From Pseudomonas flavescens (GTDB lineage Bacteria; Pseudomonadota; Gammaproteobacteria; Pseudomonadales; Pseudomonadaceae), in the NCBI RefSeq assembly GCF_013408425.1, contig NZ_JACBYV010000001.1, positions 806,001 through 870,000 of the forward strand: DNA of 64,000 bases, written 5' to 3'. Of the stretch, positions 5,390-37,216 are shown one piece after another (the stretch's first letter is position 1; every line of letters starts with the position of its first letter). Both the position numbers and the translations under genes were made by a program. The notes under the pieces were generated by a model. That model saw only the letters and a list, made by a program, of their open reading frames with translations, was not told the DNA's origin and searched no databases.

Positions 5390-5405
5390 TGTTGGTTGGC
5401 CAACA
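5390..5405. promoter_or_regulatory. Inverted repeat TGTTG-N6-CAACA, candidate activator site for the sigma-54-type promoter
   Basis: Sixteen bases, TGTTGGTTGGCCAACA, lying about 94 bases before the GG of the -24/-12 element at 5491. The same half-sites with the same 6-base spacer occur at 37201-37216 before the other sulfur flavoenzyme operon (13 of 16 bases identical). That repetition and the distance fit an upstream activating sequence for an enhancer-binding protein such as SfnR. The wider hairpin (5387-5408, 9-base stem, 4-base loop) could also act as a terminator for the Liv operon, although no T-run follows. Confidence 0.5.
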
Positions 5406-5490
5406 GTGCTTCTACAGATTGTCAGGGTGCGGCGAATCAAGAAGTCGCGGTTTTTAGCTTAACCTTTTGAATTCGCTGAATATTATTTTC

Positions 5491-5506
5491 TGGTACGCGC
5501 TATGCA
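5491..5506 (+). promoter_or_regulatory. Candidate sigma-54 (-24/-12) promoter
   Basis: TGGTACGCGCTATGCA. The GG (5492-5493) and GC (5504-5505) are exactly 10 bases apart, as sigma-54 holoenzyme requires, with one mismatch to TGGCACG and one to TTGCA. It lies 38 bases before the start of the SfnB-family gene. SfnR-type, sigma-54-dependent control of sulfone-utilisation genes is established in pseudomonads. Its use here is inferred. Confidence 0.6.
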
Positions 5507-5542
5507 AAGCCTCCTGCAACCCGATTGCAAGAGGTGAGCAGC

Positions 5543-6775
5543 ATGAGCCAGACCACGCTTTCTCCGTTCCCCCCGCAGGCCCGTTCGGCGCCAGAGCGGG
5601 CGGCCCACCTAATCCGCAGCGATGCCGAAGCCATCGAGGTCGCGCGGGAGCTGGCCGAGGCATTCGCCGTCGAAGCCGCAGCGCGTGATCGCGATCGTCG
5701 CCTGCCCTGGGCGGAGCTCGATCGGTTTTCCCAGAGTGGCCTGTGGGCGATCACGGTGCCCAGGGCCTACGGCGGTGCCGGCGTGTCCTACGCCACGCTG
5801 GTCGAGGTGATCGCGTTGATTTCAGCGGCTGACGCGTCCCTTGGCCAGTTGCCGCAGAACCACTTCGGGGTGATCAACAACCTGTCGCTCACCGCCAGCG
5901 AAGAACAGAAACAACGCTTCTTCGCCAAGGTCCTGCAGGGCTATCGCTTCGGTAACGCCTTCTCCGAAGCCAGGAGCAAGAACGTCACCGCGTTCGAAAC
6001 CCAGGTGCGCTTCGAGGGCGACAGTGTGGTGATCGAAGGAGAAAAGGCCTACTGCACCGGTGCGCTGTTCGCCCATATCGTGCCAGCGGTCGGGGTGGAT
6101 GAAGACAATCGGCCCTTCATCGCCTTCCTGCCCCGCGATGCCGAGGGGCTGAGCGTGATCGACAGTTGGGACGGCTTCGGCCAGCGCAGTACCGCCAGTG
6201 GCCAGGTGCTGCTCGACAAGGTCCGCGTACCCCGCAGCGAAGTGATCCCGGCCTGGAAGGCCTACGACCAACCTACCGCCGATGGCCCCGTGTCGCAGAT
6301 CATCCAGGCTGCGGTGGACACCGGTATCGCCCGGGGCGCCTTCGCCGAACTGCTGAAGGTCGCCAGGCAGGCAAGGCCCTGGGTCGACAGCGGCCTGCAA
6401 CATGGCTGGCAGGACCCGCTGAGCCAGGCGCTGATCGGCGACCTGGCCTGGCGCCTGAGTGCCGCCGAGGCGATTTTGCAGAAGTCAGCCAGGGCGGTGG
6501 ACCACGCCGTCGCCGAGCCCAGCGAGGACAGCGTGGCCGAGGCATCTCTGGTGGTCGGTCAGGCCAAGGTGCTGTCCACCGAAATCGCCCTGGCAGCCTC
6601 CAGCAGGCTGTTCGAACTGGGCGGTACGCGTTCGGTTTCCTCCAGCCAGGGGCTGGATCGTTTCTGGCGCAACGCGCGAACCCACACGCTGCATGATCCG
6701 GTGCGCTGGAAGTATCACCTGGTCGGCAACCTGCGCCTCAACGGCATCAAGCCACAACGTCACTCCTGGAACTGA
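5543..6775 (+). CDS. SfnB-family acyl-CoA dehydrogenase-like flavoenzyme (sulfur acquisition)
   Basis: Member of the acyl-CoA dehydrogenase fold branch that includes SfnB and DszC, 410 residues, using reduced flavin in known relatives for organosulfur compounds. The N-terminal helical domain (about 20-125) holds GLWAITVPRAYGGAGVSY. The beta domain (about 130-240) holds SEARSKNVTAFET and DSWDGFGQRSTASGQV. The C-terminal helical bundle (about 250-410) holds SSRLFELGGTRS and DRFWRNARTHTLHDP. The ATG at 5543 follows GAGGTGA by 5 bases. A sigma-54-type promoter lies just upstream, as expected for sulfur-starvation genes. The exact substrate is unknown. Confidence 0.85.
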   Translation: MSQTTLSPFPPQARSAPERAAHLIRSDAEAIEVARELAEAFAVEAAARDRDRRLPWAELDRFSQSGLWAITVPRAYGGAGVSYATLVEVIALISAADASLGQLPQNHFGVINNLSLTASEEQKQRFFAKVLQGYRFGNAFSEARSKNVTAFETQVRFEGDSVVIEGEKAYCTGALFAHIVPAVGVDEDNRPFIAFLPRDAEGLSVIDSWDGFGQRSTASGQVLLDKVRVPRSEVIPAWKAYDQPTADGPVSQIIQAAVDTGIARGAFAELLKVARQARPWVDSGLQHGWQDPLSQALIGDLAWRLSAAEAILQKSARAVDHAVAEPSEDSVAEASLVVGQAKVLSTEIALAASSRLFELGGTRSVSSSQGLDRFWRNARTHTLHDPVRWKYHLVGNLRLNGIKPQRHSWN

Positions 6776-6785
6776 GGAAACGCCC

Positions 6786-7145
6786 ATGTCCGACTCACAC
6801 ACACTGGGTGATCTGGTTTTCGCCCGTAACGCACTCAGCGCACTGGTCGAACAGCTGCGCGCGGACGCTCGCACGGATGATGCTCTGGTAATCGCCAGCG
6901 TCGGCCAGGTGCAGATCCATATCGACGCCGCCGATGCGTTGCTGGCACGTGCCGGGCGCTCGGCATCCGCCCGGGTCGAGGCGCGTCTGGCGGCAGCCGA
7001 GGCGGCCCGTCTGGCCAGTGACCTGCAGGTGGAACTGAGCGGGCAGACCTTGCCACGGCCCACGGTGGCAGACGATGAGGCGCCGCTGCACCAGCAACGT
7101 CGGCAGCTCGGCGATCACTACCTCAACGGCACTTCGTTTGAATGA
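6786..7145 (+). CDS. Small protein resembling part of an acyl-CoA dehydrogenase C-terminal helical domain
   Basis: 119 residues, starting 10 bases after the SfnB-family gene. It has no signal peptide or membrane segment and looks all-helical. The pattern VGQVQIHIDAADALLARAG followed by an Ala/Arg-rich helix resembles the four-helix region of DszC/SfnB-like enzymes, where a short 'vQv..eAAealL.rAg' helix recurs. There is no FAD/FMN-contacting N-terminal or beta domain. It may be a truncated flavoenzyme remnant or a dedicated partner of the upstream enzyme. Codon use looks like its neighbours, so it seems to be maintained. The similarity was judged by eye. Confidence 0.7.
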   Translation: MSDSHTLGDLVFARNALSALVEQLRADARTDDALVIASVGQVQIHIDAADALLARAGRSASARVEARLAAAEAARLASDLQVELSGQTLPRPTVADDEAPLHQQRRQLGDHYLNGTSFE

Positions 7146-7149
7146 TCCC

Positions 7150-7179
7150 TTCGCGGCGGCTGCGGCCGCCGCTGGCGAA
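7150..7179 (+). other. Intergenic GC-rich stem-loop before the sugar ABC operon
   Basis: GGCGGC and GCCGCC pair around a TGCG loop. An outer TTCGC/GCGAA pairing is separated from this stem by a bulge. It sits between the small orphan gene and the sugar-binding protein gene. No T-run follows, so it may act as an RNA-stability or attenuation hairpin and not as a true terminator. Confidence 0.35.
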
Positions 7180-7192
7180 CACAAGGACCGAC

Positions 7193-8179
7193 ATGAACAC
7201 GACCCTACTGCAGCGCGCCAGACGTGCGCTGACCCTGATCCTGCCGCTGGCGGCTGTGCTGGCGCAGGCAGCCTACGCGCAAACCGCTGATGTGCCCTCG
7301 CTGGCTGGCAAACGCATCGCCATCAGCATGACCGGCACCAGTCACTATTTCGACGTCAAGGCGTTCCAGGCGCAGGTCGATGAGATCAAGCGCCTGGGGG
7401 GGACGCCGATTACCCTGGATGCAGGGCGCAACGACAAGAATCTAGTGACCCAGCTGCAGACCGTGGTCACCCAGAAGCCCGACGCGGTGATCCAGACCCT
7501 CGGTACCCTCAGCGTGATCGACCCCTGGCTCAAGCGCATCAGCAAGGCTGGCATACCGCTGTTCACCATCGATGCGCCGTCGCAGCACAGTATCAACAAC
7601 ACCACGTCGGACAATGTCACCAGTGGCCGGGTCCTGGCCGAGCAGCTGGCCAGCGACGCAGGTGGCAAGGGCAATATCCTGGTGTTCAATGGCTTCTATG
7701 GCGTCCCGGTATGCGCCATCCGTTATGACGAGCTGCAGAAGGTGCTGGCCGCCCACCCGAACCTGAAGATCCTGCAGCCCGAGTTGCGCGATGTGATCCC
7801 CAATACCGTGCAGGACGCCCGTGCGCAGATAGCCGCCTTGCTCAACAAGTACCCGAAGGGCGAAATCGCCGCGATCTGGTCGGCCTGGGATATCCCTCAG
7901 CTTGGCGCCAGCCAGGCACTGATCGACGCCGGACGCACGGAAATCAAGACTTACGGCGTCGACGGCACGCCCGAAGTGCTGGAACTGCTCGCTCGCGACG
8001 CTTCGCCGGTCGGCGCAGTGGTCGCGCAGCAGCCGGAGCTGATCGGCAGGACGGCGGTGCAGAACGTGGCGCGTTACCTGGCCGGGCAGCGTGACCTGCC
8101 CAAGGAAACCCATGTGCCGACGCTGCTGACGACCCACGCCAACCTCGATCAGGTGCGGCAACTGCGGGGCGATCAGTGA
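7193..8179 (+). CDS. Sugar-type ABC transporter substrate-binding protein (RbsB-like)
   Basis: Periplasmic binding protein of the Peripla_BP_4 class, 328 residues. A signal peptide spans about 1-30 (ALTLILPLAAVLAQAAYAQ). The mature part starts with RIAISMTGTSHYFDVKAFQAQ, where RbsB-type proteins place their first ligand contacts, and contains KPDAVIQTLGT and AIWSAWDIPQLGASQAL. The ATG at 7193 has AAGGA 5 bases upstream; an earlier in-frame ATG at 7142 lacks this. It heads a complete four-gene importer. The ligand is unknown; its position after a sulfur flavoenzyme leaves open that it is not an ordinary sugar. Confidence 0.9.
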   Translation: MNTTLLQRARRALTLILPLAAVLAQAAYAQTADVPSLAGKRIAISMTGTSHYFDVKAFQAQVDEIKRLGGTPITLDAGRNDKNLVTQLQTVVTQKPDAVIQTLGTLSVIDPWLKRISKAGIPLFTIDAPSQHSINNTTSDNVTSGRVLAEQLASDAGGKGNILVFNGFYGVPVCAIRYDELQKVLAAHPNLKILQPELRDVIPNTVQDARAQIAALLNKYPKGEIAAIWSAWDIPQLGASQALIDAGRTEIKTYGVDGTPEVLELLARDASPVGAVVAQQPELIGRTAVQNVARYLAGQRDLPKETHVPTLLTTHANLDQVRQLRGDQ

Positions 8180-8210
8180 GCCGGCTCCTTTGCCGTGTGG
8201 GAGGGCTTTG

Positions 8211-9779
8211 ATGAGCGCGCTCGAACCCCGTCCGCAGCCTGAAGGTGACATCGCTCTGGAGCTGCGGGGCATCGTCAAGCAGTTCGGCGCAACCCGCGCC
8301 CTCGATGGTGCCAGTCTGCGCGTGGCCAGTGGCACCGTGCACGGGCTGGTCGGGGAGAATGGCGCTGGCAAGTCGACCCTGATCAAGGTCCTGGCTGGCA
8401 TCCATCGACCCGATGCGGGCAGCCTGCTCGTCAATGGCCAGGTTTACAGCCATTTCAGCCCTCGTCAGGTCGAGCGCCTGGGTGTGCAGTTCATCCATCA
8501 GGAACGCCTGCTACCCGCTAGCTTCAGCGTCGGCGAGGCGCTGTTCTTCGGCCAGGAGCTGCGCCGCGGGCCACTGCTCGACCGCCGCGCGCAGCAGCAT
8601 GAAGCCGAGCGTCTGCTGCGCCATTATTTCGACCTGCGTCTCCCCGGTAGCGCACTGATCGGCGAGCTGGGCAATGCCGAGCAGCAACTGGTGCAGATTA
8701 CCCGGGCGCTGATCAGCAAACCGCGTGTGCTGGTGTTCGACGAACCGAGCGTCGCCCTGGTGCAGCGCGAGGTGGAACGGTTGCTGCGCATCGTCGAACG
8801 GCTGCGCCGCGAGGGGCTTACGATCATCTACATCTCTCACTATCTGCAGGAAATCGAGGCGCTGTGCGACCGGGTCACGGTGTTGCGCAATGGCCGTGAC
8901 GTGGCCGAGGTCGATCCACGCAGCGCCACGCCCGACAGCATCGCCCGGCTGATGGTCAATCGCGAGGTCGGCGAGCTCTATCCCAAAGCGTGCACCACGC
9001 CGGGCAAGGCATTGCTGGAAGTACGCGGGCTTGGTCGTGGCGCAGCTTACAAGGACATCGACCTGCAGGTACGCCGCGGCGAGATCGTCGGCCTTACCGG
9101 CCTGGTCGGCTCCGGGGCCAAGGAGCTGCTCAGGGGCCTGTTCGGTCTGCTGCCCCCTGAGCGCGGCGAGGTACGCATCGATGGCCGTGTGCAGCGTCTG
9201 CACGGTACTTCCCAGGCCGTGCGCAACGGTATCGCCCTGCTGCCCGAGGAGCGTCGCAGGCAAGGCATCGCGCTGGACCTGAGCGTGCAGGAGAACATCA
9301 CCCTGGCCAGCCTGGGCCGCTTCAGTTGGTTCGGGCTGCTGCGTCGGCGTGTCGAGCGTCGGACCAGCGAGGCGCTGATCGGCCGCCTGCGGATCAAGGC
9401 CGCTGGCACGCAGAGCGCGCTGCGCCAGCTAAGTGGTGGCAATCAGCAGAAGGTGGCGCTGGCCAAGTGGTTCGCACGCCAGTCCAGCCTCTATCTGCTC
9501 GACGAGCCCAGCGTGGGCATCGACATCGGTGCCAAGGTGGAGATCTACCGGCTTATCGGCGAACTGGTGAGCGAGGGCGCCGGGGTATTGATCCTGTCGT
9601 CCGATCTTCCCGAGCTGCTGGGGCTGTGCGACCGCATTCACGTCATGCACCGCGGCGCGCTCGCCGCGACCTTCGCTGCCGGTGAAGCCGACAGCGACCG
9701 CCTGCTCGCCGTGGCCACCGGCGCCGAGCGCATCACCGAGCCCGTACAGGAATTGTCGCCCCATGCCATCGCTATCTGA
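8211..9779 (+). CDS. Sugar-type ABC transporter ATP-binding protein, two NBDs (RbsA/MglA-like)
   Basis: Double-ATPase subunit of the importer, 522 residues. NBD1 has Walker A GENGAGKST and Walker B VLVFDEP, but its signature is LGNAEQQL instead of LSGGQ. NBD2 has a degenerate Walker A (GLVGSGAKELL), a good signature LSGGNQQKV and Walker B LYLLDEP. One competent and one degenerate site is the usual state of RbsA/MglA proteins. The start at 8211 follows a GGAGGG. It overlaps the next permease gene by 17 bases, suggesting translational coupling. Confidence 0.93.
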   Translation: MSALEPRPQPEGDIALELRGIVKQFGATRALDGASLRVASGTVHGLVGENGAGKSTLIKVLAGIHRPDAGSLLVNGQVYSHFSPRQVERLGVQFIHQERLLPASFSVGEALFFGQELRRGPLLDRRAQQHEAERLLRHYFDLRLPGSALIGELGNAEQQLVQITRALISKPRVLVFDEPSVALVQREVERLLRIVERLRREGLTIIYISHYLQEIEALCDRVTVLRNGRDVAEVDPRSATPDSIARLMVNREVGELYPKACTTPGKALLEVRGLGRGAAYKDIDLQVRRGEIVGLTGLVGSGAKELLRGLFGLLPPERGEVRIDGRVQRLHGTSQAVRNGIALLPEERRRQGIALDLSVQENITLASLGRFSWFGLLRRRVERRTSEALIGRLRIKAAGTQSALRQLSGGNQQKVALAKWFARQSSLYLLDEPSVGIDIGAKVEIYRLIGELVSEGAGVLILSSDLPELLGLCDRIHVMHRGALAATFAAGEADSDRLLAVATGAERITEPVQELSPHAIAI

Positions 9780-10755
9780 CGTCTCGACACCCGCGCTGCC
9801 GCGACGCTTCGCTGTCAGCCTGTTGCGCAGCGGCGCATCGTTGGCGTTCGCCGCCATTCTGCTGGGGCTTGCCATCAGCGCGCCGAACTTTCTGTCGCTG
9901 GGCAACCTGCTCAACGTCCTCACCCAGTCGGCGATTCTCGGCATTCTTGCCTTCGGCCTCACGGTGGTGGTCATCGGCGGTGGTTCCAATGTCGTATCCG
10001 GTGGGCTGGACCTATCCCTGGCGGCCAACCTCGGCCTCTGCGCAGCGGTCTACGCGACCCTCAACAATGCGGGCTATGGTGCTGCGAGCGCCGTTGCGTT
10101 GACGCTGGCCTGCGGGCTGGCCATCGGCCTGCTCAACGGTGCCCTGGTGGTAGGGCTGCGCTTGCCTGCCTTGCTGGCGACGCTGGCGAGCATGAACCTG
10201 ATCGCCGGGCTGGAGCTGGTGCTTACAGAGAACACCGTGTTGCCGACCGAATCCGCGCTGCTCGACTGGTTGAGCTTTGCCGAGCCGCTGGGCGTTCCGG
10301 CGCTGGCCTGGGTGTTGACGGTGGTGGCGGCGATCCTGCTGGTGCTGGTGCAGTACACGCCCTTCGGTCTGCGGCTTTATGCGGTGGGGGAGTACCCGGA
10401 GGCAGCCACCGCTGCAGGGATCGCGGTCCCCCGCTATGTGCTCGGCAGCTATCTGATCAGCGGCCTGTGCGGCAGCCTGGCGGCGTTCTGTTCCTCGGCC
10501 TGGTTCAGTGGCAGTACCACCGGCTCCGCAGACATGCTGCTACCGGTGGTCGCCATTGCGTTTCTGGGCGTGATCTTCTCGCGCCGGCTGCAGCCGAGCA
10601 TCTCCGGAACCCTGTTGGCCACGCTGTTGGTGGGCTGCCTGATCAACGGCTTCCAGCTATTGAATATTTCCAGTTTCTGGGTCAATGGCGTGCAGGGCGT
10701 GCTGATCCTGGCGGTGGTCGCGGCATCCAGCCTGCTGCGCGGTCGGGAGGCCTGA
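9763..10755 (+). CDS. Sugar-type ABC transporter permease (RbsC-like), first
   Basis: Inner-membrane permease of the BPD_transp_2 class, 330 residues and about nine to ten hydrophobic segments. Diagnostic stretches are GGGSNVVSGGLDLSLAANLGL (the 'GGIDLSVG' motif of the family) and LPALLATLASMNLIAGLEL. I use the ATG at 9763, inside the end of the ATPase gene, since earlier in-frame codons would give a non-membrane, Pro-rich leader. It is followed one base later by a second permease, so the channel is probably a heterodimer. Confidence 0.9.
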   Translation: MPSLSDVSTPALPRRFAVSLLRSGASLAFAAILLGLAISAPNFLSLGNLLNVLTQSAILGILAFGLTVVVIGGGSNVVSGGLDLSLAANLGLCAAVYATLNNAGYGAASAVALTLACGLAIGLLNGALVVGLRLPALLATLASMNLIAGLELVLTENTVLPTESALLDWLSFAEPLGVPALAWVLTVVAAILLVLVQYTPFGLRLYAVGEYPEAATAAGIAVPRYVLGSYLISGLCGSLAAFCSSAWFSGSTTGSADMLLPVVAIAFLGVIFSRRLQPSISGTLLATLLVGCLINGFQLLNISSFWVNGVQGVLILAVVAASSLLRGREA

Positions 10756-10756
10756 G

Positions 10757-11749
10757 ATGAGCGATTCGATTGTCAGGGGCGAGCGCCTGGGGCGTGGCGC
10801 TCCGTCGTTGGTCGCATTGCTGGTGCGCCTGTTGTTGCCGATAGCCTTCCTGGCGGTGCTGACGTTCTTTGCCGTGAAGGCGCCGGGCTTCCTCAGTTCG
10901 GGCAATCTGACCAGCCTGCTGCTGAACAACTTCGTGTTGCTGGCCATCGTCGCGGTGGGCATGACCTATGCCATCGCGGCCGGGGGCATCGATCTGTCGG
11001 TGGGCACGGCGCTGGATTTTTCGGCACTGGCCTTCGTGGTTCTGCTCAATGCCGGTCACGGATTCAGCGTCGCGGTGCTGGGGGCACTGCTGGCCGGCAG
11101 CCTTACCGGCCTGTTCAATGCCGGACTGATCGCGGGGCTGGGCATTTCCCCGTTTCTGGCCACGCTGGGCACGTTGTTCATCGGCACCAGCGTGCAGCAA
11201 CTGCTGTCGGAGGGCGGACAACCGATTTACCTGGCGGCCGCCGTGCGACCTGGTGCTCTCGTCGATCCCTTGCTGGGGATTCCCTTGCCGCTGCTCCTGG
11301 TGGCGTTGCTGGCCCTGGTGTATGGCGTGCTGCTGGCGCGCGGGCGCTTTGGTCGTGAGGTTCTGGCGTTGGGTACTCAGCCTCTGGTCGCTCGCTACTC
11401 GGGGCTGTGCCTGTCGCGCGTCGCTGCGCTGGTGTTCATCGCCAGTGCATTCGCCAGTGCGGTGGCTGGCATCGTGCTGACGATGTCGGTGAACGCCTAC
11501 GTACCGATGTCCGGCAATGCCTTTCTGATGAATGCCATTGGCGCGGTGTTCATCGGAACCACGCTGAACCGCCGGGGGCGGGCGAATATCGCTGGCACGC
11601 TGCTGGGGGTTCTGTTCCTCAACGTCACGGCCAATGGCCTGTTGCTGATTGGCTGGAATTTCTACTGGCAGCAGGTCGCGACCGGTGCGCTGATTCTGCT
11701 GGTGCTGGTGTTCAGCTTCATCAGCCGCCGCCTGGTTCAGGCGCGCTGA
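10757..11749 (+). CDS. Sugar-type ABC transporter permease (RbsC-like), second
   Basis: Second BPD_transp_2-class permease, 330 residues. It carries GGIDLSVGTALDFSALA near residue 75 and ISPFLATLGTLFIGTSVQQL near residue 130, both typical of ribose/galactose-type permeases. It starts one base after the preceding stop. Like its neighbour it has the expected hydrophobic profile and no binding domain. It closes the operon that begins at the binding protein at 7193. The ligand is not deducible. Confidence 0.9.
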   Translation: MSDSIVRGERLGRGAPSLVALLVRLLLPIAFLAVLTFFAVKAPGFLSSGNLTSLLLNNFVLLAIVAVGMTYAIAAGGIDLSVGTALDFSALAFVVLLNAGHGFSVAVLGALLAGSLTGLFNAGLIAGLGISPFLATLGTLFIGTSVQQLLSEGGQPIYLAAAVRPGALVDPLLGIPLPLLLVALLALVYGVLLARGRFGREVLALGTQPLVARYSGLCLSRVAALVFIASAFASAVAGIVLTMSVNAYVPMSGNAFLMNAIGAVFIGTTLNRRGRANIAGTLLGVLFLNVTANGLLLIGWNFYWQQVATGALILLVLVFSFISRRLVQAR

Positions 11750-11871
11750 GGTGACCCGCGGCGGGTGACCGTTGCGTGGTCACGCCGAGCGGGCTATGTT
11801 GCCCGCCCATTCGGGGCGGCTTTGCCGGCTGCGAAGCTGGAAGATGTTGCCTGAGCCGTTGAAGGAACCCC

Positions 11872-12387
11872 ATGCAGGTATCACCGTTGGAGATCGCCGA
11901 AGTCGGTCCGCACGACATTGGCGCGGTAATCGATTTCGTCATGGCCGCCCGCGCGGAAATCTTTCCCATGCTCGATGCAAGGGTGCTGCCGGCAGATCTG
12001 CAGCACTTCGAGCGGGTCTACCTGAATGGGCAGGACGGTCGTTTCTGGCTGGCGCGCAGTGCGGGCGAAGTGGTCGCAGCCATTGGCTATCTGCCCTATG
12101 ACCATCGTTTCGCGCAGCTCGATTATGTCGGGCGCCGGACCGTGGAAATCGTGCGTCTGTTCGTGGCTCCGCACTTGCGCCGTTGCGGTCTGGCCAAGGC
12201 GCTGTACGAGCGGCTGCGCGAGCACGCCGCTGCCGCCGGCGTGCAGGTACTTTATCTGCATACCCATCCCTTCCTGCCGGGGGCTATCCGCTTCTGGGAG
12301 CGGCAGGGCTTCGCTGTGGTGGATGTGGAAGCAGATCCGCTCTGGCAGACGACGCATATGCAATGTGTATTGCCCGCGTTGAGCTAG
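11872..12387 (+). CDS. GNAT-family N-acetyltransferase
   Basis: Cytoplasmic acetyl-CoA-dependent transferase, 171 residues, with a GAAGGAA Shine-Dalgarno-like sequence before the ATG. Motif A of the GNAT fold is visible as RLFVAPHLRRCGLAKALYERL (R-x-x-G-x-A type). Motif B is reflected in YLHTHPFLPGAIRFWERQGF, the common 'fYek.GF' ending. It stands alone between the ABC operon and the MFS gene. The acceptor substrate cannot be read from sequence. Confidence 0.85.
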   Translation: MQVSPLEIAEVGPHDIGAVIDFVMAARAEIFPMLDARVLPADLQHFERVYLNGQDGRFWLARSAGEVVAAIGYLPYDHRFAQLDYVGRRTVEIVRLFVAPHLRRCGLAKALYERLREHAAAAGVQVLYLHTHPFLPGAIRFWERQGFAVVDVEADPLWQTTHMQCVLPALS

Positions 12388-12545
12388 AGTCACCGCCCGT
12401 CGCGAGCTTGTTCGATGGGCGAGCGTCGCCTTGCCGGTGCGTGATCCGATGTCATCGGCCCGAGGCCATGGCATTGCCGGGCATCCCATCTGTTCCATAG
12501 GCCGACGATTCGCGCGGTGCACGCCGATTCACCCCCGAGGTAACC

Positions 12546-13760
12546 ATGAACGCATCCACTTCACGCGAACACCACAGCCTGCCGCCCGCGCTGGTGCTGC
12601 TGTTCGCCTTCTGTTGCGGCGCCATCGTCGCCAATCTCTATTACGCCCAGCCGATCATCGAACTGATCGCTCCCTCGGTGGGCCTGTCGATGCACAAGGC
12701 CAGCCTGATCGTTTCCCTGACCCAGGTCGGTTACGCGGTAGGCCTGCTGTTTCTGGTGCCGCTGGCCGACCTGCTGGAGAACCGCCGGCTGATGCTGCTG
12801 ACCACCCTGGCCGCGATGGTCTGCCTGCTGGCCGCTGGCTTGTCGTCATCGCCGGGCCTGTTTCTCGGCCTGTCGCTGCTGGTCGGCCTGAGTTCGGTGT
12901 CGGTGCAGATGCTGATTCCCCTGGCTGCCCATCTGGCGCCTGAGGCCACCCGTGGTCGCGTGGTGGGCAACATCATGGCCGGGCTGCTGCTGGGTATTCT
13001 GCTGGCGCGCCCGGTCGCCAGCCTGATCGCCGAATACTTCGGCTGGCGTGCTGTGTACTTTTGCGCGGCAGCGATGATGCTGGGCATCGTGGTGGTGATC
13101 GCCACCACCATTCCCCGTCATGCGCCGGACAACCATGGCCATTACGGTCAACTGCTGCTGTCGCTGTTCGGCCTGTTGCGGCGCTATTCGACGCTGCGTC
13201 AGCGGGCGTTGTATCAGGGCCTGATGTTCGCTTCGTTCAGCCTGTTCTGGACGCTGGCTCCCCTCGAACTGGTGCGCCATTACGGCTTCAGCCAGAGCCA
13301 GGTGGCGCTGTTCGCGCTGGTCGGCGCCATCGGGGCGATCGCCGCGCCGCTCGCGGGTCGCCTGGCCGATGCCGGCCATACCCGTCGTGCAACCCTGGTG
13401 GCCTTGACGCTCGCGCCGCTGTCTTTCGCGCTGACTCTGGCCAGCCCGCTGGCCGGAGTGATCGGCCTGGTGCTGTGTGCCGTGCTGCTGGATTTCGCCG
13501 TGCAACTGAACATGGTGCTGGGCCAGCGCGAGGTGTATGCCCTGGAGCAGAACAGCCGGGCGCGGCTCAATGCGCTGTACATGACCAGCATCTTCATTGG
13601 TGGCGCCACGGGTTCGGCGATCGCCAGCCCCATCTACGAAAGCTTCGGCTGGCAGGGCGCCGCGCTGATCGGTGGCGCGTTCCCGGCCCTGGCGCTGCTG
13701 GTGGCGCTGTGCAATGGGCGCCAGGTTGAGCCGGAGCAGCGGGTGCTGTCCGGCAAGTAA
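12546..13760 (+). CDS. MFS transporter (YnfM/arabinose-efflux-like)
   Basis: Twelve-segment major facilitator protein, 404 residues. It shows the family signs FCCGAIVANLYYAQPI at the first segment, PLADLLENRRLML in the loop 2-3 region (D-x-x-x-R-R type) and LARPVASLIAEYFGWRAVYF at segment 5. This pattern matches the drug/sugar efflux branch seen in many pseudomonads. The ATG at 12546 follows a GAGG. A convergent dehydratase gene begins 8 bases downstream. The substrate is unknown. Confidence 0.88.
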   Translation: MNASTSREHHSLPPALVLLFAFCCGAIVANLYYAQPIIELIAPSVGLSMHKASLIVSLTQVGYAVGLLFLVPLADLLENRRLMLLTTLAAMVCLLAAGLSSSPGLFLGLSLLVGLSSVSVQMLIPLAAHLAPEATRGRVVGNIMAGLLLGILLARPVASLIAEYFGWRAVYFCAAAMMLGIVVVIATTIPRHAPDNHGHYGQLLLSLFGLLRRYSTLRQRALYQGLMFASFSLFWTLAPLELVRHYGFSQSQVALFALVGAIGAIAAPLAGRLADAGHTRRATLVALTLAPLSFALTLASPLAGVIGLVLCAVLLDFAVQLNMVLGQREVYALEQNSRARLNALYMTSIFIGGATGSAIASPIYESFGWQGAALIGGAFPALALLVALCNGRQVEPEQRVLSGK

Positions 13761-13768
13761 CGGGATGC

Positions 13769-14968: not shown

Positions 14969-14977
14969 GAACTGTCC

Positions 14978-15961: not shown

Positions 15962-16057
15962 GCGTGCTTCTCCTGTATCGCGGTCATGCCTGTGCGAGCG
16001 TCCATCTGGACGCTCGCGAATGACGGTTCTCGTTCGTGGATGCGCCTGATCGATTTT

Positions 16058-25067: not shown

Positions 25068-25082
25068 TTTTTATCAGAAGCT

Positions 25083-29243: not shown

Positions 29244-29301
29244 TCCGGCAGGTTCGGGATGGCGGCTCGGGGGCCATGGCCAATGAGCCGCCAGCCTGGC
29301 T

Positions 29302-29715: not shown

Positions 29716-29737
29716 GGGCTGTTGACGTTTCAGCTCG
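29713..29737 (+). repeat. Solitary terminal sequence of the MITE-like repeat
   Basis: TAGGGGCTGTTGACGTTTC, continuing as CAGC, matches the minus-strand end of the repeat at 59682-59754 (TAGGGTCTGTTGACGTGTC, then AGC) with few differences. No matching inverted arm is found in the following 100 bases, so it looks like a decayed or half copy. Confidence 0.45.
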
Positions 29738-29826
29738 AGCCGTTACTGCGAGAAGCCTCGCGAGGCAGAAGGTGATCGCGACCGCCAAACGGGCGACTGA
29801 CCCATCCCGTGATCAACTCCCTGTGC

Positions 29827-30276: not shown

Positions 30277-30305
30277 TGAATTCTCCTGGCCGGGGCGGTG
30301 GCCCG

Positions 30306-30354
30306 TTACGTAATGAACCATGTTACGAGTATTGACCCGAATCCTTCATGTAAC
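30306..30354. promoter_or_regulatory. Candidate operator region between Rrf2 and oxidoreductase genes
   Basis: The palindrome TTACGTAA (30306-30313) is followed by GTTAC (30322-30326) and its inverse GTAAC (30350-30354). These recurring GTTAC/GTAAC half-sites lie in the 135-base divergent promoter and are plausible Rrf2 sites. Confidence 0.4.
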
Positions 30355-30411
30355 TCATGATGTTTCGTGATGGCCGCGGGAGAGCCGAGGTCGACACACG
30401 GGAGTTAATTC

Positions 30412-31299
30412 ATGAGCCATGACGTGATCATCGTCGGAGGTAGTTACGCGGGATTGTCCGCCGGCCTGCAACTGGTAAGGGCGCGTCGCCGCGTATTGGT
30501 GATCGACGCTGGCAAGCGACGCAATCGCTTTGCCGAACATTCCCACGGTTTTCTCGGGCAGGACGGTCGGCCACCGGCGGAGATCGCCGCCGATGGTCGT
30601 GCCGAGTTCATGGATTACCCGACAGCCGACTGGCTGACTGACAGTGCCACCAGCGTGCAGCGCGAAGGCGAAGGCTTCGTGGTCGGGGTGCGAAGCGGCG
30701 CACGCTTGCCTGCTCGTCGCCTGATTCTCGCGGGCGGCGTGCGTGATGAGCTGCCAACCATCCCTGGTCTTGTCGAACGCTGGGGGCGAAGCATCTTTCA
30801 TTGCCCGTATTGCCACGGCTACGAGCTGGATCAAGGGCGTATCGGCGTGCTGGCCGCTTCCGAGCTGTCCATGCACCATGCCCTGATGCTGCCGGACTGG
30901 GGCCACACCACGCTGTTCACCAACGGGGCTTTCGTGCCCAGTGCCGAGCAATGGGGTCAGTTGGCCAATCGCGGTGTGGTCGTGGAGCCTGAGCCGGTGC
31001 GGGCGATCAGTGGCGAGCGGGCGAACGTGCACCTGGGGGACGGCCGCGAGGTCGCGCTGGATGGTCTGTTCACCCTGACCCGCACGCATCTGGACAGCAC
31101 GCTGGTCGACCAGCTTGGCTGTCAGCTCACGGCCGGGCACACCGGCTCCTACATACAGGTGTCGGAGATCCAGGAAACCAGCGTTCCCGGCGTGTTCGCC
31201 TGCGGCGATGCAGCTCTGCCTGCGGGCTCGGTGGCCCTGGCGGTAGGCTCTGGTGCGCGAGCGGGTACCGGCGCGCACGCTTCGCTGATGTTCCGCTGA
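30412..31299 (+). CDS. Thioredoxin reductase-like FAD/NAD(P) oxidoreductase
   Basis: 295 residues. The FAD motif is VIIVGGSYAGLSAGLQL at the N-terminus, the redox pair is HCPYCHGYE near residue 140, and the C-terminal FAD motif is VFACGDAALPAGSV. The CxxC in this position is shared with thioredoxin reductases and the holomycin/gliotoxin-type thiol oxidases. The middle NAD(P)-binding loop is poor (GVLAASELSMHHA in place of GxGxxG), which hints at the oxygen-using branch. GGGAG lies 9 bases before the ATG. It is controlled, by inference, by the divergent Rrf2 protein. Confidence 0.88.
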   Translation: MSHDVIIVGGSYAGLSAGLQLVRARRRVLVIDAGKRRNRFAEHSHGFLGQDGRPPAEIAADGRAEFMDYPTADWLTDSATSVQREGEGFVVGVRSGARLPARRLILAGGVRDELPTIPGLVERWGRSIFHCPYCHGYELDQGRIGVLAASELSMHHALMLPDWGHTTLFTNGAFVPSAEQWGQLANRGVVVEPEPVRAISGERANVHLGDGREVALDGLFTLTRTHLDSTLVDQLGCQLTAGHTGSYIQVSEIQETSVPGVFACGDAALPAGSVALAVGSGARAGTGAHASLMFR

Positions 31300-31661
31300 T
31301 AGCCGCCACGCTGTGCCCCCGGGTCAGGCCACGAGTCGCCCTCAGCGCGAACTCCATGGGCGTGGCGCTTGCACGGCAAGGCCACCATCCTCGGTCCCCA
31401 GGCTCCGATCAGCGGCAAGAGGTACTCACGAACGGATGGCGGAGGGTTTTAGAGAGCGTCGTGAGGGTGTTCGACAACCAGGCGCAGATCAATGCAATCG
31501 GTTATGTCGCAGGGTAGAGTGGTACCGCTCTGCTAGCGCCCGTGACGCTGCCAGCTGCGTCGTTCCTTTCCATGCAGGTCATCGATGAGCCTTTTGCCGA
31601 CAACGCCACTATTGGCTTTCCCTGATACCCCTCGTGCCTGGCTGCCCGTGCAGGTGAGCCA
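31300..31661. other. Intergenic region before the cytochrome gene
   Basis: About 360 bases with no supported gene. A 26-codon frame (31585-31665) overlaps the cytochrome start by ATGA but lacks a ribosome site, and I do not call it. No hairpin or operator stands out. Confidence 0.45.
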
Positions 31662-32036
31662 ATGATCCGCCCGTTGCTGCTACTGCTGACGCTGTTGGCT
31701 GCGGGCCTGGCTCACGCCGAGGCAGACGTGGCCACGGGGGATGCGCTGTTCAAGCGCAATTGTGGCAATTGCCACAAGGTCGGGCAGGGAGCCCGAGCCG
31801 CGTTCGGCCCGCAGCTCAATGGCATCATTGGGCGAACCGCGGGCTCCACAACCGACTACCGCTATTCGCCAGCCATGAAGGACTCCGCCGTGGTCTGGAG
31901 CCCCGAGACCCTGAGTGCCTTCATCAAGGACTCCGAGGCGGTGGTGCCCGGCAACAAGATGCGCTTCTGGGGCATCGGCGATCAGGACAAGATCGACAGC
32001 CTGCTGCTTTATCTGCAAACCCAGCCGGCGCAATGA
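31662..32036 (+). CDS. Class I c-type cytochrome
   Basis: Periplasmic haem protein, 124 residues. The signal peptide is at about 1-20 (LLLLLTLLAAGLAHAEA). The haem-binding motif CGNCH is at about residues 34-38, and the axial Met is in VPGNKMRFWGI. The size and GNKM motif match the eukaryote-like class I soluble cytochromes. AGGTGAG precedes the ATG. It is monocistronic as far as seen. The redox partner is not indicated by context. Confidence 0.93.
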   Translation: MIRPLLLLLTLLAAGLAHAEADVATGDALFKRNCGNCHKVGQGARAAFGPQLNGIIGRTAGSTTDYRYSPAMKDSAVVWSPETLSAFIKDSEAVVPGNKMRFWGIGDQDKIDSLLLYLQTQPAQ

Positions 32037-32318
32037 GGCTGCTGCAATCCTCGCCGGCCCGGCCATCTCGCCATTCAGACTGAACAAAGCCCAGCCCACC
32101 GGCTCTGAAACAGAAGTGCAGGCCAACCAGGCTGTTTGAAAACCACTGCGCTCGGTCATGCGGCGTTAAAACCAGCTGGAATGCCAGCCCAGTCAACATG
32201 CTCATTTGCAGCACGTGAACTGCGCTTTTCGCCGGTTTTTGCCTTGCCTGACCTTCGCCCGCGACGTTTTCACACGGCCTGCAACGGCCTGCGATCTTCT
32301 TCCCGACCCGGATGTGCG

Positions 32319-34385
32319 ATGGCTATGCGTGATGAAGAACAGGTGAATTGGCTGGTCGAGCAGTCCATGCTCCACACCGCGAAACAGCGAGCCCGGCTAT
32401 ACGCTGGCCAGCCCAGGCTCTGGCAGCATCCCTATGCTTTGGCGCGGCCGCGCAGCGTCACGGCGGTGGCTTCGGTGTGGATCGCCGTCTACCCGGCCGC
32501 CATCATCACCACGCCTGAGGGTTCCGTTCTCCAGGCCCTGGGCGACGAACGCCTGTGGGCCGCGCTCTCGGAACTGGGCGTGCAGGGCATCCATACCGGG
32601 CCGATGCGCCGCTCCGGAGGCCTCCACGGGCGTACCTACACGCCCACCGTGGACGGCAATTTCGACCGGATCAGCCTGCAGGTCGATCCGCGCTACGGTA
32701 CCGAGGAGCAGCTCATTCACCTCAGCCGCGTGGCTGCCGCACACAATGCGGTGACCATCGATGACTCCATCCCTTCGCACACCGGCAAGGGCGCTGATTT
32801 CCGTCTGGCGGAAATGGCCTATGGCGACTATCCGGGCCTCTTCCACATGGTCGAGATCCAGGAGGCCGACTGGGCGATGCTGCCCGATGTCCCGGCCGGC
32901 CGTGACGCGGTGAACCTGCCGCCGACGGTGGTCGACGCCTTGCGCGACAAGCACTACATCGTCGGGCAACTGCAGCGGGTGATCTTCTTCGAGCCAGGCG
33001 TCAAGGAGACCGACTGGAGTGCCACCGCCGAAGTGGAAGGGGTGGATGGCAAGGTGCGCCGTTGGGTGTATCTGCATTACTTCAAGGAAGGTCAGCCGTC
33101 GCTGAACTGGCTGGACCCCACCTTCGCGGCCCAGCAACTGGTCACTGGCGAAGCCCTGCATGCCATCGACGTGATCGGTTCACGGGTGTTGCGCCTGGAC
33201 GCCAACGGCTTTCTCGGCGTCGAGCGGCGCAGCCAGGGCAATGCGTGGTCGGAGAGCCATCCGCTGTCGCAGACCGGTAACCAGTTGCTTGGCGGCATGA
33301 TCCGCAAGGCCGGTGCCTTCAGTTTTCAGGAGCTGAACCTGACGCTGGACGACATCGCCGCGATGTCCCAGGGCGGTGCCGATCTGTCCTATGACTTCAT
33401 CACCCGGCCGGCCTATCAGCATGCCCTGCTTACCGGTGACGTGGAGTTCCTGCGGCTGATGCTGCACCAGATGCACGACTTCGGCATCGACCCCGCCTCA
33501 CTGATCCATGCCCTGCAGAACCATGACGAACTGACCCTGGAGCTGGTGCATTTCTGGACCCTGCATGCCAACGACACCTACGTGTTCCGCGGGCAGAGCC
33601 TGCCGGGCAACATATTGCGCGAGCAGATCCGCGCCGAAATGTACGAGCACCTGGCCGGCGCCAACGCACCCTACAACCTCAAGTTCGTCACCAATGGCGT
33701 GGCCTGCACCACGGTCAGCATCATTACCGCGGCCCTGGGTATCAGTGACCTGAACGCCATCAGCGAAGCGGATGTGGCGAAGATTCGCCAGGTGCACCTG
33801 TTGTTGCTGATGTACAACGCCATGCAGCCGGGCGTGGTCGCCCTGTCGGGCTGGGACCTGGTGGGGGCCTTGCCGCTGGAAGTGGATCAGGTCAGCGAAC
33901 TGATCGCTGACGGCGACACCCGCTGGATCAACCGCGGCGGCTACGACTTGGTCGATCTCGACCCGCAAGCGCTGCTGTCTGCCGAGGGCCTGCCCAAGGC
34001 GCGCAACCTCTATGGCAGCCTGAGCGAGCAGTTGAAGGACCCCGAGTCGTTCGCTTCCCAAGCACGGCGCATGTTCGCAGCGCGTCGCTCCTACGGCGTG
34101 GCTTCCAGCAAGCAGGTCGCGGTGCCACTCACCAGTCATCCGGCCCTGCTGATCATGGTCCACGAGTTGCCGGCCGGGCGTGGTACCCAGGTCACGGCCC
34201 TGAATTTCGGTGCCGAGCCACTGACCGAGGTAGTGACCCTGACCGATGTCGAGCCAGGGCCCGTGGTGGACATCATCCACGAACGCCTGGTCGGTGACCT
34301 GAACGCCGAGGGCGAGCTGCACATCGAGCTGGCGCCCTATGAAGGCCTGGCACTGCGGGTGGTGAGCATGGCCCACGGCATCTGA
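32319..34385 (+). CDS. treS: Trehalose synthase / maltose alpha-D-glucosyltransferase (GH13), P. stutzeri type
   Basis: Cytoplasmic enzyme interconverting maltose and trehalose, 688 residues, the length of the P. stutzeri trehalose synthase I remember, which it closely resembles. GH13 regions are [16 protein letters not shown], the nucleophile Asp in [11 protein letters not shown], the acid Glu in [10 protein letters not shown] and [11 protein letters not shown] start at ATG 32319 (next ATG 32325); the frame is open 183 bases further upstream but that leader has no family counterpart. No other trehalose gene is adjacent. Confidence 0.88.
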
Positions 34386-34396
34386 GGTGGGCAGGC

Positions 34397-35635
34397 TCAG
34401 GCCTGCTTGGCACCGCCACCGATCTGCCAGACGTAAGGGGGCTCGGTGCCGTTGATTTCCCAGTCGCCGATGATCCGCTCCTTGTAGATCAGCGGGTTGT
34501 GCGAGGCCGCGGTGCGGGCGTTGCGCCAGTGGCGGTCGAGTTGCCGGGTGAGGCTGGTCGCCGAGGCGCCGAGGGCGTTGAACAGCTTGCTGGTGGCGTC
34601 GAGCACCAGCTCCGCGACCGCCACCTGGGCCTGGGCCGACTCCAGTTCGGCGTCGATATTGGCGTCGCGCTCCTGCTGCAGGTCTCCATTCAGACGTGCC
34701 AGGTAAGCGCGTTGCGCGGCATGCGCTGCCCGCAGTGTCGCGGCTTCGGCGCTGTACACCTGGGCCGAAGCCTTGCCGACCACCTGCTGGATCTGCGGGT
34801 CCTGATCGGCCGAGGGGCCGTTGCCGTGGCTGTAGATGCGCGTGCGCTGGCCGACCTGCCTGGCGAAGTCGTTGACCGCAGCGCGCCCCGAGCCGACCAG
34901 CACTGCATTGAGTACCAACTGGTAGAAGGCGGTCTGGTATTTGAAACGGGTGGCGAAGTCGATGATGTTCTGTTCCTCGACCACGGCGTTGTCGAACACC
35001 GTCGTGCCGCTGCCCGTGGTGCGCTGACCGAAACCATCCCAGTCGTCGCTCAGGGTCACCCCAGGCTGCTGAGTGCGGATGGCTGCGATCACATCCGCTC
35101 CGCTATCGTCACGTTGGGCGAAGAGGTCGATCCAGTCGGAAAAGATGCTGCCGGTGCTGTAGTACTTGGTGCCGTTGACCACCCATTTGTCGCCCTGGCG
35201 GGAGACCCGTGTGAGCACTTCGCCGATCTTCACGGCACCGATTTCCGTCCAGGCGCATCCCACCAGGTCGCCAGCCACGAAGCGTTGAAACCAGGTGTCC
35301 TGTGGCGAGCTGGCGTGGGCATTGAGACGGTCCTCGACGAAGGCGAAATGACCGCGCAGCGCCTGGGGAATGTTCGAGTCGGCCGCCGCCAGCTCGATCA
35401 GCAACTGGAACAGCTGTGGCAGCGAGGCACCGCCACCGCCATGTTCCTGTGCCACGCGAACGGCGCCGAAACCGGCAGCCTTGAGCCAGCGGATCTGTTC
35501 ATGGGGCAGGCTGCGATTGCGCTCACGTTCCACGGCACCTTCGGCGATACGCGCGAAGATCGGCCGGAAGCGCTGCGCGAGTTGTTCGTAGTCGGTTTCC
35601 TGGGGCAGCGGTTTGACGGGCTGGAGGCTGGTCAT
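34397..35635 (-). CDS. DszC/SfnB-like acyl-CoA dehydrogenase-family monooxygenase
   Basis: 412 residues, second gene of a leftward sulfur operon. The ACAD-type N-terminal helices hold KAAGFGAVRVAQEHGGGGAS, the beta domain holds GCAWTEIGAVKIGEVLTRV, with DDWDGFGQRTTGSGT, and the C-terminal bundle ends with TRQLDRHWRNARTAASHNP. Relatives use reduced FMN to oxygenate sulfides, sulfones or sulfonates. AGAGGAA lies before the start. It is paired with the DszA-like gene 17 bases upstream. The substrate is unknown. Confidence 0.88.
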   Translation of the reverse strand: MTSLQPVKPLPQETDYEQLAQRFRPIFARIAEGAVERERNRSLPHEQIRWLKAAGFGAVRVAQEHGGGGASLPQLFQLLIELAAADSNIPQALRGHFAFVEDRLNAHASSPQDTWFQRFVAGDLVGCAWTEIGAVKIGEVLTRVSRQGDKWVVNGTKYYSTGSIFSDWIDLFAQRDDSGADVIAAIRTQQPGVTLSDDWDGFGQRTTGSGTTVFDNAVVEEQNIIDFATRFKYQTAFYQLVLNAVLVGSGRAAVNDFARQVGQRTRIYSHGNGPSADQDPQIQQVVGKASAQVYSAEAATLRAAHAAQRAYLARLNGDLQQERDANIDAELESAQAQVAVAELVLDATSKLFNALGASATSLTRQLDRHWRNARTAASHNPLIYKERIIGDWEINGTEPPYVWQIGGGAKQA

Positions 35636-35652
35636 GGTGGGATTCCTCTGGG

Positions 35653-37080
35653 TCAGGTCAGCGTGGCGAAAGGAGAGGGCTTGGTGTGGTCGGTGGTGTT
35701 GGCACCCTCGCTGAATGCGCCGCGATAGCGGGCCGCCGGATGGTCCGCTGCGGCATGGGGCGAATCGCTGTCGAGCAGGTTTTCACGCAGGGTGCTGGCG
35801 CCGTAGGCGCTGCGCACCCGGCCGCGGCGTTGCAGTTCGGGGACGATGAACTCGATGAAGTCTTCGAAGGTGCCGGGCGTGATGGCATAGGCGAGGTTGA
35901 AGCCGTCGATGCCACCGACATCGACCCAGCGTTCGAGCTCATCGGCTACCCGTTGAGGGCCGCCGATCAGCACCGGGCCGAGGCCGCCGATGCTGCGGTG
36001 TTCGACGATGTCGCGCGGTGTCCATTTGCGGTTCGGGTCGGCGGTGGCGAGCAATTCGAGCACCGAGCGAATGCTGTCGTTGTCGATGGCCTCCAGCGGT
36101 TGATCCGGGTCGTATTCGGAGAAGTCGACCCCGGTCCAGCCACCATAGAAGGACAGCATGCCCTCGCCATTGGCATAACTCAGGTAGTCCTGGTACTTGG
36201 CTTCGGCGGCGGCATCGCTTTCTGCGGTGATCACCGTGAGCAGGGCGAAGATCTTCAGGGCGTCCCGCGAACGGCCCGCCTGTTCGGCGCGGTCGCGGAT
36301 GTCGTCGGCCACCTCGCGAGCCTGCTCGACCGTGGCCGGGCTGATGAAGACCCCTTCGGCATGCTTGGCGGCGAAGGCCCGGCCGCGGCTGGAGGCGCCG
36401 GCCTGGAAGATCACCGGAGTGCGCTGTGGCGAGGGTTCCGAGAGGTGGATACCCGGCACCTCGAAGTATTTGCCCTTGTGGCCGATGGGATGCACCTTGC
36501 TCGGGTCGGTGAAGATCCCTCGCTCGCGATCGCGCAGCACCGCGCCCTCGTCCCAGGAGCCCTCCCAGAGCTTGTAGGTGACATCGAGGAACTCATCGGC
36601 GATGTCGTAGCGCTCGTCATGGGAGATCTGCTGCTTGAGGCCCAGGTTGACCGCCGCGCTGTTCAGGTAGGAGGTCACCACGTTCCAGGCCACCCGGCCC
36701 TTGGTCAGGTGATCGAGGGTCGAGAATTTGCGCGCCAGGGCGTAGGGCAGCTCGTAGGTGAGTGCCGAGGTCACGCCGAAACCGAGATGCCTGGTCGCGG
36801 CTGCCATGGCTGGTACCTGAAAGAACGGGTCGTTGACCGGCACCTGATCGGCATCGATCAGCGAGGTTTCCACCGAGCCCCGGTAGATGTCGTAGACGCC
36901 CACCACATCGGCGATGAACAGTGAATCGAAGTACCCGCGTTCGAGCAGTTTGGCCAGGTCGACCCAGTAGTCCAGGTCGTTGTAGCGCCATGCCTGGCTC
37001 TGTGGATGTCGCCATGTGCCAGCGGCCTGGTGACTGACGCAGGTCATGTCGAATGCATTGAGAATGATGCGAGATGGCAT
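35653..37080 (-). CDS. LLM-class flavin-dependent monooxygenase (DszA/NtaA/SnaA-like)
   Basis: 475 residues, TIM-barrel flavin monooxygenase of the NtaA/SnaA/DszA branch. The N-terminus has the DMTCVSHQAAGTWRHP pattern, then GYFDSLFIADVVGVYD and KGRVAWNVVTSYLNSAAVN, all characteristic of that branch. In known systems DszA-type enzymes cleave C-S bonds of sulfones. It is the first gene of the operon behind the sigma-54-type promoter at 37131-37148, so it is probably expressed when sulfate is short. Requires a flavin reductase not seen in the window. Confidence 0.9.
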   Translation of the reverse strand: MPSRIILNAFDMTCVSHQAAGTWRHPQSQAWRYNDLDYWVDLAKLLERGYFDSLFIADVVGVYDIYRGSVETSLIDADQVPVNDPFFQVPAMAAATRHLGFGVTSALTYELPYALARKFSTLDHLTKGRVAWNVVTSYLNSAAVNLGLKQQISHDERYDIADEFLDVTYKLWEGSWDEGAVLRDRERGIFTDPSKVHPIGHKGKYFEVPGIHLSEPSPQRTPVIFQAGASSRGRAFAAKHAEGVFISPATVEQAREVADDIRDRAEQAGRSRDALKIFALLTVITAESDAAAEAKYQDYLSYANGEGMLSFYGGWTGVDFSEYDPDQPLEAIDNDSIRSVLELLATADPNRKWTPRDIVEHRSIGGLGPVLIGGPQRVADELERWVDVGGIDGFNLAYAITPGTFEDFIEFIVPELQRRGRVRSAYGASTLRENLLDSDSPHAAADHPAARYRGAFSEGANTTDHTKPSPFATLT

Positions 37081-37130
37081 AGTCGTCTGACTCCCCTGAT
37101 TGAGTGCCGGATGGCGGGTCCCAGAGGTGT

Positions 37131-37148
37131 TTGCAGACTTTGTGCCGG
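37131..37148 (-). promoter_or_regulatory. Candidate sigma-54 (-24/-12) promoter of the DszA/DszC-like operon
   Basis: On the minus strand CCGGCACAAAGTCTGCAA. The GG (plus positions 37145-37146) and GC (37133-37134) are 10 bases apart. It differs from TGGCACG-N4-TTGCA at three positions. It lies about 53 bases upstream of the DszA-like start. Confidence 0.5.
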
Positions 37149-37200
37149 GGCGCAGAACCCCGCGCGATAGCGGCTTCAGCGTGTCTTGGATGGCCGCGAA

Positions 37201-37216
37201 TGTTGGTCAGGCAACA
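37201..37216. promoter_or_regulatory. Inverted repeat TGTTG-N6-CAACA, candidate activator site
   Basis: TGTTGGTCAGGCAACA, 13 of 16 bases the same as the repeat at 5390-5405, lying about 62 bases before the -24/-12 element. A second weaker copy, TTTG-TCAGG-CAAA (37218-37230), sits next to it. Confidence 0.5.

Follow-up and report, generated by a model that had tools for sequence, protein, structure and literature searches.

The inverted repeat TGTTG-N6-CAACA occurs twice in a 64,000-nucleotide stretch of the Pseudomonas flavescens genome (contig NZ_JACBYV010000001.1, positions 806,001 to 870,000; the whole stretch is referred to as the window), each time upstream of a sigma-54-type -24/-12 element and of an operon for flavoenzymes of sulfur metabolism. 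An original prediction, made from the sequence alone, had proposed that both copies are read by one regulon, and had named the sigma-54 activator SfnR in this context. We followed this up in the window, in its genome and in 59 genomes of the genus. The features concerned are the following:

5387..5408, no strand: SfnR-type upstream activating site 1 (predicted), CACTGTTG-N6-CAACAGTG, with the earlier core at 5390-5405; conserved before sfnB orthologs
5490..5505, plus strand: -24/-12 element of site 1, TGGTACGCGCTATGCA, GG at 5491
5543..6775, plus strand: sfnB, TIGR04022 flavoprotein, 613.8 bits, above the curated cut-off of 430.9
34397..35635, minus strand: SfnB/DszC-like flavoprotein, TIGR04022 279 bits, below the cut-off of 430.9 and thus SfnB-like only
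35653..37080, minus strand: NtaA/DmoA-family flavin mononucleotide-dependent (LLM) monooxygenase, TIGR03860 555.4 bits, above the cut-off of 279.7
37133..37148, minus strand: -24/-12 element of site 2, CGGCACAAAGTCTGCA, GG at 37147
37201..37216, no strand: SfnR-type upstream activating site 2 (predicted), TGTTG-N6-CAACA
37267..38169, minus strand: LysR-type regulator, oriented like the operon of site 2 and lying upstream of that site

The arrangement described in the original prediction was recovered in full. The repeat is exact at 5390-5405 and 37201-37216, with 13 of 16 bases identical and the same 6-base spacer, -24/-12 elements follow at 94 and 62 bases, respectively, counted from the palindrome centre to the GG, and the operons downstream encode sulfur flavoenzymes, namely a TIGR04022 SfnB behind site 1 and a TIGR03860 LLM monooxygenase with an SfnB-like flavoprotein behind site 2. 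The promoter elements TGGTACGCGCTATGCA and CGGCACAAAGTCTGCA agree with TGGCACGNNNNTTGCW in 10 and 9 of 12 positions. Site 1 is better described as the 22-base palindrome CACTGTTG-N6-CAACAGTG than as a 16-mer, and site 2 deviates from the extended form ACTGTTGN6CAACAGT in 2 of 14 positions. With up to one mismatch, four copies of the 16-mer lie in the window compared to a mean of 1.4 in shuffled sequences, 6 of 100 of which reach four. Directly upstream of site 1 lies a LivF-like ATP-binding cassette (ABC) ATPase gene (4427-5344), and such a gene is also found close upstream of sfnB in L138-L142, with 82-87% identity.

The contig of the own genome that was searched comprises 5,951,877 bases (5.95 Mb) and contains three exact copies of TGTTG-N6-CAACA, while about 2.2 are expected from its composition and the reversed pattern used as control occurs once. 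Copies of the 16-mer with at most one mismatch are likewise at background (97 versus 110 for the control). Each of the three exact copies has a sulfur flavoenzyme operon downstream, with the -24/-12 element (9-10 of 12) at a distance of 62-94 bases, and it is the placement and not the number of the exact copies that exceeds chance. A random genome-wide frequency without any link to sulfur genes or sigma-54 elements had been named as an outcome that would speak against the original prediction; the frequency is indeed at chance, whereas the link to both is present. The third exact copy (G000:C1:1411413) is situated 93 bases from TGGTACAGCTCTTGCT and precedes msuD-msuC-sfnR, in which msuD (above the cut-off of the alkanesulfonate monooxygenase model), a DszC/SfnB-like gene and the gene for a sigma-54 activator of 366 amino acids follow one another with a 4-base overlap and then an 8-base gap. 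A weaker fourth site, ACTGTT-N8-AACAGC (L028 517-536), has its -24/-12 element (11 of 12) at 80 bases and lies before a sulfonate-type ABC operon of an NMT1-type binding protein, a permease and an ATPase, the best match of the latter being an aliphatic-sulfonate ATPase, below cut-off. Another dmoA-like gene (G000:C1:802382) is preceded by a copy with one mismatch, for which no -24/-12 element of at least 9 of 12 was found at 30-160 bases.

Comparison across the 59 genomes defines the site as ACTGTT-N8-AACAGT, with a -24/-12 partner whose distance peaks at 92-94 bases. The motif alone yielded 53 exact hits versus 18 for the reversed control, and all 53 were examined with their flanking sequence. 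When -24/-12 elements of at least 10 of 12 were counted, with C or T allowed at the C positions, 21 fell into the bin of 90-94 bases and at most two into any other 5-base bin between 20 and 320 bases. This unbiased motif-only count constitutes our evidence for the spacing peak; the 51 distinct composites of palindrome and promoter, 48 of which have distances of 92, 93 or 94 bases, were collected with a preset gate of 90-96 bases and partly by homology of the loci, and were used for the consensus and not as evidence on spacing. A partner at 91-95 bases accompanies 19 of the 31 palindromes with an inner G on the left or an inner C on the right, one of 12 with inner C...G and one of ten with other inner bases. 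The class ACTGTTC-N6-GAACAGT (12 of the 53 exact hits, e.g. L218, L222, L223 and L242) recurs mostly without a -24/-12 element and probably belongs to another protein or regulator.

The site also accompanies individual genes. A palindrome with at most 2 of 10 mismatches, 91-95 bases from a -24/-12 element of at least 9 of 12, was the criterion for ortholog loci, and sites of this kind, at 91-94 bases from the promoter element, accompany 19 of 27 msuD orthologs (at least 86% identical) and 10 of 12 sfnB orthologs (at least 67%), the own genes included in both cases. It was found at 6 of 18 sfnB homologs of about 50% identity taken from a longer list and, together with a -24/-12 element, at none of the three ssuD homologs (about 72%) that were taken. 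Within 500 bases before the sfnB homologs of 80 named loci, six have a site at 92-94 bases (L138-L141, L143 and L144), all of them among ten Pseudomonas rows, of which L142, L148, L179 and L192 show none there; two more (L197 and L209) have matches only at 139-158 bases, and 72 have no site in this interval. The genes behind composites of 91-95 bases include msu, sfnB, dmoA and sfnG (G056), a sulfonate-type binding protein, a CUT2 ABC operon and TonB-receptor-like genes. Several msu promoters, those of L043-L052 among them, have three half-sites, as another copy of the palindrome overlaps the first with an upstream shift of 15 bases and stands 108 bases from the GG of the -24 element. Outside Pseudomonas, identical or similar palindromes stand 92-95 bases from -24/-12 elements in Acinetobacter populi (L209, GG at 884 and 6619, the latter on the minus strand) and in Methylophilus (L197, GG at 6618, minus strand); the first site of L209 precedes an MsuD homolog (80%), with an SfnR homolog of 56% nearby.

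The predicted SfnR of the own genome (L028:4702-5802, minus strand), the 366-residue activator of msuD-msuC-sfnR, carries an AAA+ sigma-54 domain at residues 24-187 with a GAFTGA motif, and Pfam recognises no N-terminal sensor domain in it. The name rests on the operon context and on the consulted parts of the literature; the protein exceeds no equivalog cut-off of NCBIfam. Orthologs of at least 80% identity are present in 38 of the 59 genomes, a limit that was set after seeing the list, in which near-full-length matches leave a gap between 64% and 80%, and that includes G058 on the basis of a partial match (83%, residues 106-273). Exact composites with 91-95 bases occur in 18 of these 38 genomes and in none of the 21 others (Fisher p 6.6e-5), while for a control activator encoded in the same region and found in 42 of the 59 genomes, the corresponding numbers are 15 of 42 and 3 of 17 (p 0.22); the genomes are related, and these p values overstate their independence.

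Further support comes from sfnG, since sfnFG is a reported SfnR target in the consulted parts of the literature. The exact palindrome precedes sfnG in four relatives (L233, L236, L262 and L263 of the genomes G046, G044, G056 and G031), whose proteins score 613-630 bits with TIGR04021 against a cut-off of 382.95. In 2008, Kouzuma reportedly obtained footprints of SfnR on sfnFG. In three of the four sfnG loci, a divergently oriented sfnB-like gene on the other side of the palindrome has a -24/-12 element as well, at 60 (L233), 62 (L236) and 50 bases (L263), and one palindrome may therefore serve two promoters. The distance of 62 bases at site 2 of the window, which is 31-32 bases or about three helical turns nearer than the peak, recurs as a class before sfnB-like genes of relatives (60 bases at L144, 60 at L233 and 62 at L236); no simple helical rule accounts for the distances of the sfnG sites or of the weak site at 80 bases.

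Taken together, the palindrome is likely the enhancer, i.e. the upstream activating site, of SfnR in a small sigma-54 sulfur regulon that includes sfnR, a reading to which we assign a probability of roughly 0.8. The single SfnR/sigma-54 sulfur regulon postulated at the outset thereby gains support from the third site at msuD-msuC-sfnR, the sharp spacing peak, sfnG in four relatives and the restriction of exact composites to genomes with an SfnR ortholog. SfnR, as a short activator without an N-terminal sensor, would bind the two half-sites of the palindrome and reach, by DNA looping, the RNA polymerase-sigma54 bound at the -24/-12 element at a distance of 62-94 bases; this contact would drive formation of the open complex. 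The regulon would consist of at least the three operons with an exact site: sfnB with the small gene and the CUT2 ABC genes (5387-11749), the dmoA-like gene with the sfnB-like gene (34397-37216), and msuD-msuC-sfnR. As a site precedes the operon that contains sfnR, SfnR would activate its own operon as well. Sites, spacing, conservation and co-occurrence with SfnR are observed; binding by SfnR and activation under sulfate starvation we infer from them, as we do the co-transcription of the ABC genes with sfnB.

Several observations weigh against this assignment. Apart from the chance-level count of the exact repeat and the relatedness of the compared genomes, 20 of the 38 SfnR-positive genomes have no exact composite, and the site is missing from 8 of the 27 msuD orthologs, from 2 of the 12 sfnB orthologs and from 12 of the 18 more distant sfnB homologs (about 50% identity). 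In the own genome, 17 of 19 LLM genes have no site within 1500 bases upstream, although one of these adjoins sfnR downstream and could be read from the third site; likewise, an sfnB-sfnB-dmoA cluster (G000:C1:5933077-5936855, L273), that is two sfnB-like genes and an LLM gene, has no palindrome with a partner promoter, and these organosulfur genes apparently lie outside the predicted regulon. The C-terminal Fis-type helix-turn-helix of SfnR is weakly matched (HTH_8 17.2 bits, cut-off 22, E 0.0044), and a sigma-70-like match at 5459-5486, of a kind expected about once by chance, lies between site 1 and its promoter element. Site 2 combines a weaker match with a distance of 62 rather than 92-94 bases. 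Before sfnG, the palindrome lies 120 (L233), 167 (L236), 94 (L262) and 110 bases (L263) from the -24/-12 element, only one of the four being within the peak, and this variation slightly lowered our confidence.

Another sigma-54 activator, for example an SfnR2-like paralog, could bind the palindrome in place of the sfnR product of the msu operon. The genome offers candidates, with 19 strong matches to Sigma54_activat (24 over cut-off), some relatives encode SfnR paralogs of 53-64% identity, and the A. populi locus L209 combines an exact site at 92 bases with an SfnR homolog of just 56% in the stretch examined. However, the own genome has a single match to SfnR at E ≤1e-80, the distribution of exact composites follows that of SfnR orthologs (at least 80%) but not that of the single control activator compared, and sfnR itself is part of one of the three exact-site operons, which together make a different activator improbable. 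Considerably less probable still is binding by a LysR-type regulator, either the product of 37267-38169 or CysB. The LysR gene lies directly upstream of site 2, and CysB is named as regulator of sfnR in the consulted parts of the literature; yet the annotated neighbours of site 1 (LivF-like and sfnB) are not of the LysR type, the peak at 92-94 bases to the -24 element holds over unrelated operons, and the palindrome is even-centred, unlike the T-N11-A motif of LysR proteins.

That the palindromes are terminators of the preceding genes is suggested by their positions, site 1 starting about 45 bases past the stop codon of the LivF-like gene and site 2 lying about 50 bases past that of the LysR gene on the same strand. 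Neither palindrome is followed by a T run, however, site 1 is not among the results of a terminator scan of 5300-12600, and both the bases and the spacing to the -24/-12 element are conserved at other operons, so that we consider this explanation hardly credible. A mere chance likeness of two 16-mers fits the genomic count of three versus about 2.2 expected, but is highly unlikely given that all three exact copies are well placed and the spacing peak extends across the genus. The terminator, chance and LysR explanations were thus rejected or down-weighted.

Behind sfnB, the window contains further genes on the same strand:

6786..7145, plus strand: small gene, 119 amino acids, resembling a free-standing SfnB C-terminal domain; behind sfnB in 5 of the 80 named loci
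7193..8179, plus strand: periplasmic binding protein (Peripla_BP_4) of a CUT2 ribose-type ABC transporter
8190..9779, plus strand: CUT2-type ATPase with two ATP-binding halves, start probably 8211
9682..10755, plus strand: CUT2-type permease 1, start uncertain
10757..11749, plus strand: CUT2-type permease 2

The small gene has no Pfam match, and in the five loci it starts 13-15 bases past the last sfnB codon. In hhalign, its family profile aligns with the C-terminal region of that of SfnB (probability 96.7, E 4.6e-10), while direct BLASTP against SfnB gives E 1.6; it is kept behind sfnB in some Pseudomonas-type genomes. Judged by SfnB, the closest relative in the list of named relatives, which may leave out records of the own genome, is Pseudomonas (Phytopseudomonas) dryadis with 90% identity. 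There, the small gene is followed by an acetyltransferase gene and not by ABC genes, and the latter were accordingly either gained behind sfnB here or lost there.

The original prediction had extended the regulon to the small gene and the sugar ABC operon. No palindrome with a -24/-12 element stands directly before the ABC genes of the window genome, which would thus be read from the sfnB promoter; the relatives favour the extension, if indirectly. The binding protein is found in 5 of the 59 genomes, all five with an SfnR ortholog, and in three of the four besides the own one the ABC operon has its own palindrome with a -24/-12 element at 92 bases (L320, L321 and L323, with 3, 1 and 0 mismatches of 14), the fourth having a palindrome at 129 bases (L322, 2 mismatches). 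Furthermore, homologs of the binding protein (59-85%; a ninth row of 26% was left out) lie within the flanks of sfnB homologs in 8 of the 80 named loci (L144, L145, L151, L159, L177, L180, L182 and L196), from Pseudomonas syringae, Paraburkholderia, Acidisoma, Caballeronia and Methylobacterium, and six of these eight also contain the ATPase and both permeases (at least 45%). This suggests, indirectly, that the ABC operon is a member of the SfnR regulon. Terminator-like sites in 5300-12600 number six compared to 4.4 expected in shuffles; with no excess, read-through from the sfnB promoter into the ABC genes is plausible. All four ABC proteins score below every sugar-specific curated cut-off among the models listed (for the ATPase, the best 25 of 188).

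TonB-dependent-receptor-like genes stand behind the palindrome at L228, L239, L247 and L253 (G032, G054, G051 and G030). Their matches to PqqU are weak and below cut-off, and three of the four loci have a -24/-12 element, at 92, 94 and 82 bases, L253 having none. Tentatively, and at slightly less than even odds, the 'ribose-type' ABC transporter behind sfnB may import an organosulfur compound and not a sugar, as a dedicated importer of the SfnR regulon shared with sfnB/dmoA clusters across proteobacterial classes, and might form, with TonB-dependent receptors behind SfnR-type sites, a complete sulfur uptake route from the outer to the inner membrane.

With the site defined as ACTGTT-N8-AACAGT, mostly 92-94 bases from the GG of the -24 element, sulfur-scavenging genes should become findable by sequence alone in Pseudomonas-type genomes, and transporters annotated as sugar- or siderophore-type are drawn into organosulfur metabolism. 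The loci also provide a natural set of promoters in which the strictness of the distance requirement between enhancer and sigma-54 promoter could be studied. SfnR and the regulon under its control are already known; what is new, as far as the consulted literature allows us to say, is the comparative site with its spacing, the placement of sfnR downstream of such a site and, as putative members, the transporter and TonB-receptor-like genes. A consensus of the SfnR site was not found in the parts of the literature searched, which did not extend to the primary SfnR papers, and a published consensus may well exist.

The consulted parts of the literature describe an SfnR regulon of Pseudomonas putida DS1 and P. 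aeruginosa that comprises sfnFG, sfnAB and msu (Endoh 2003, Endoh 2005, Habe 2007, Lundgren 2019). The system described here resembles it in the grouping of the sigma-54 activator with msu genes, the -24/-12 promoters and the SfnB, SfnG and MsuD enzymes. It differs in that the enhancer is defined here by comparison, as ACTGTT-N8-AACAGT with a peak at 92-94 bases, in the CUT2 ABC operon behind sfnB, and in the lack of a close SfnG counterpart, the best of the 19 LLM genes of the window genome reaching about 32% identity with the SfnG of a relative. Moreover, a site precedes the sfnR operon here, whereas sfnECR of DS1 is presumably driven by CysB. With activators of the NtrC/FleQ/PspF type, SfnR shares the AAA+ domain and the GAFTGA motif, its best solved relatives being FlrC, NtrC, FleQ and PspF, but it has only 366 residues and no N-terminal sensor recognised by Pfam. 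Finally, the ABC operon resembles CUT2 transporters for ribose- or xylose-type sugars in its Peripla_BP_4 protein, double ATPase and two permeases; unlike those, its proteins fall below the sugar-specific cut-offs listed and are encoded in sulfur loci and, in relatives, behind SfnR-type sites.

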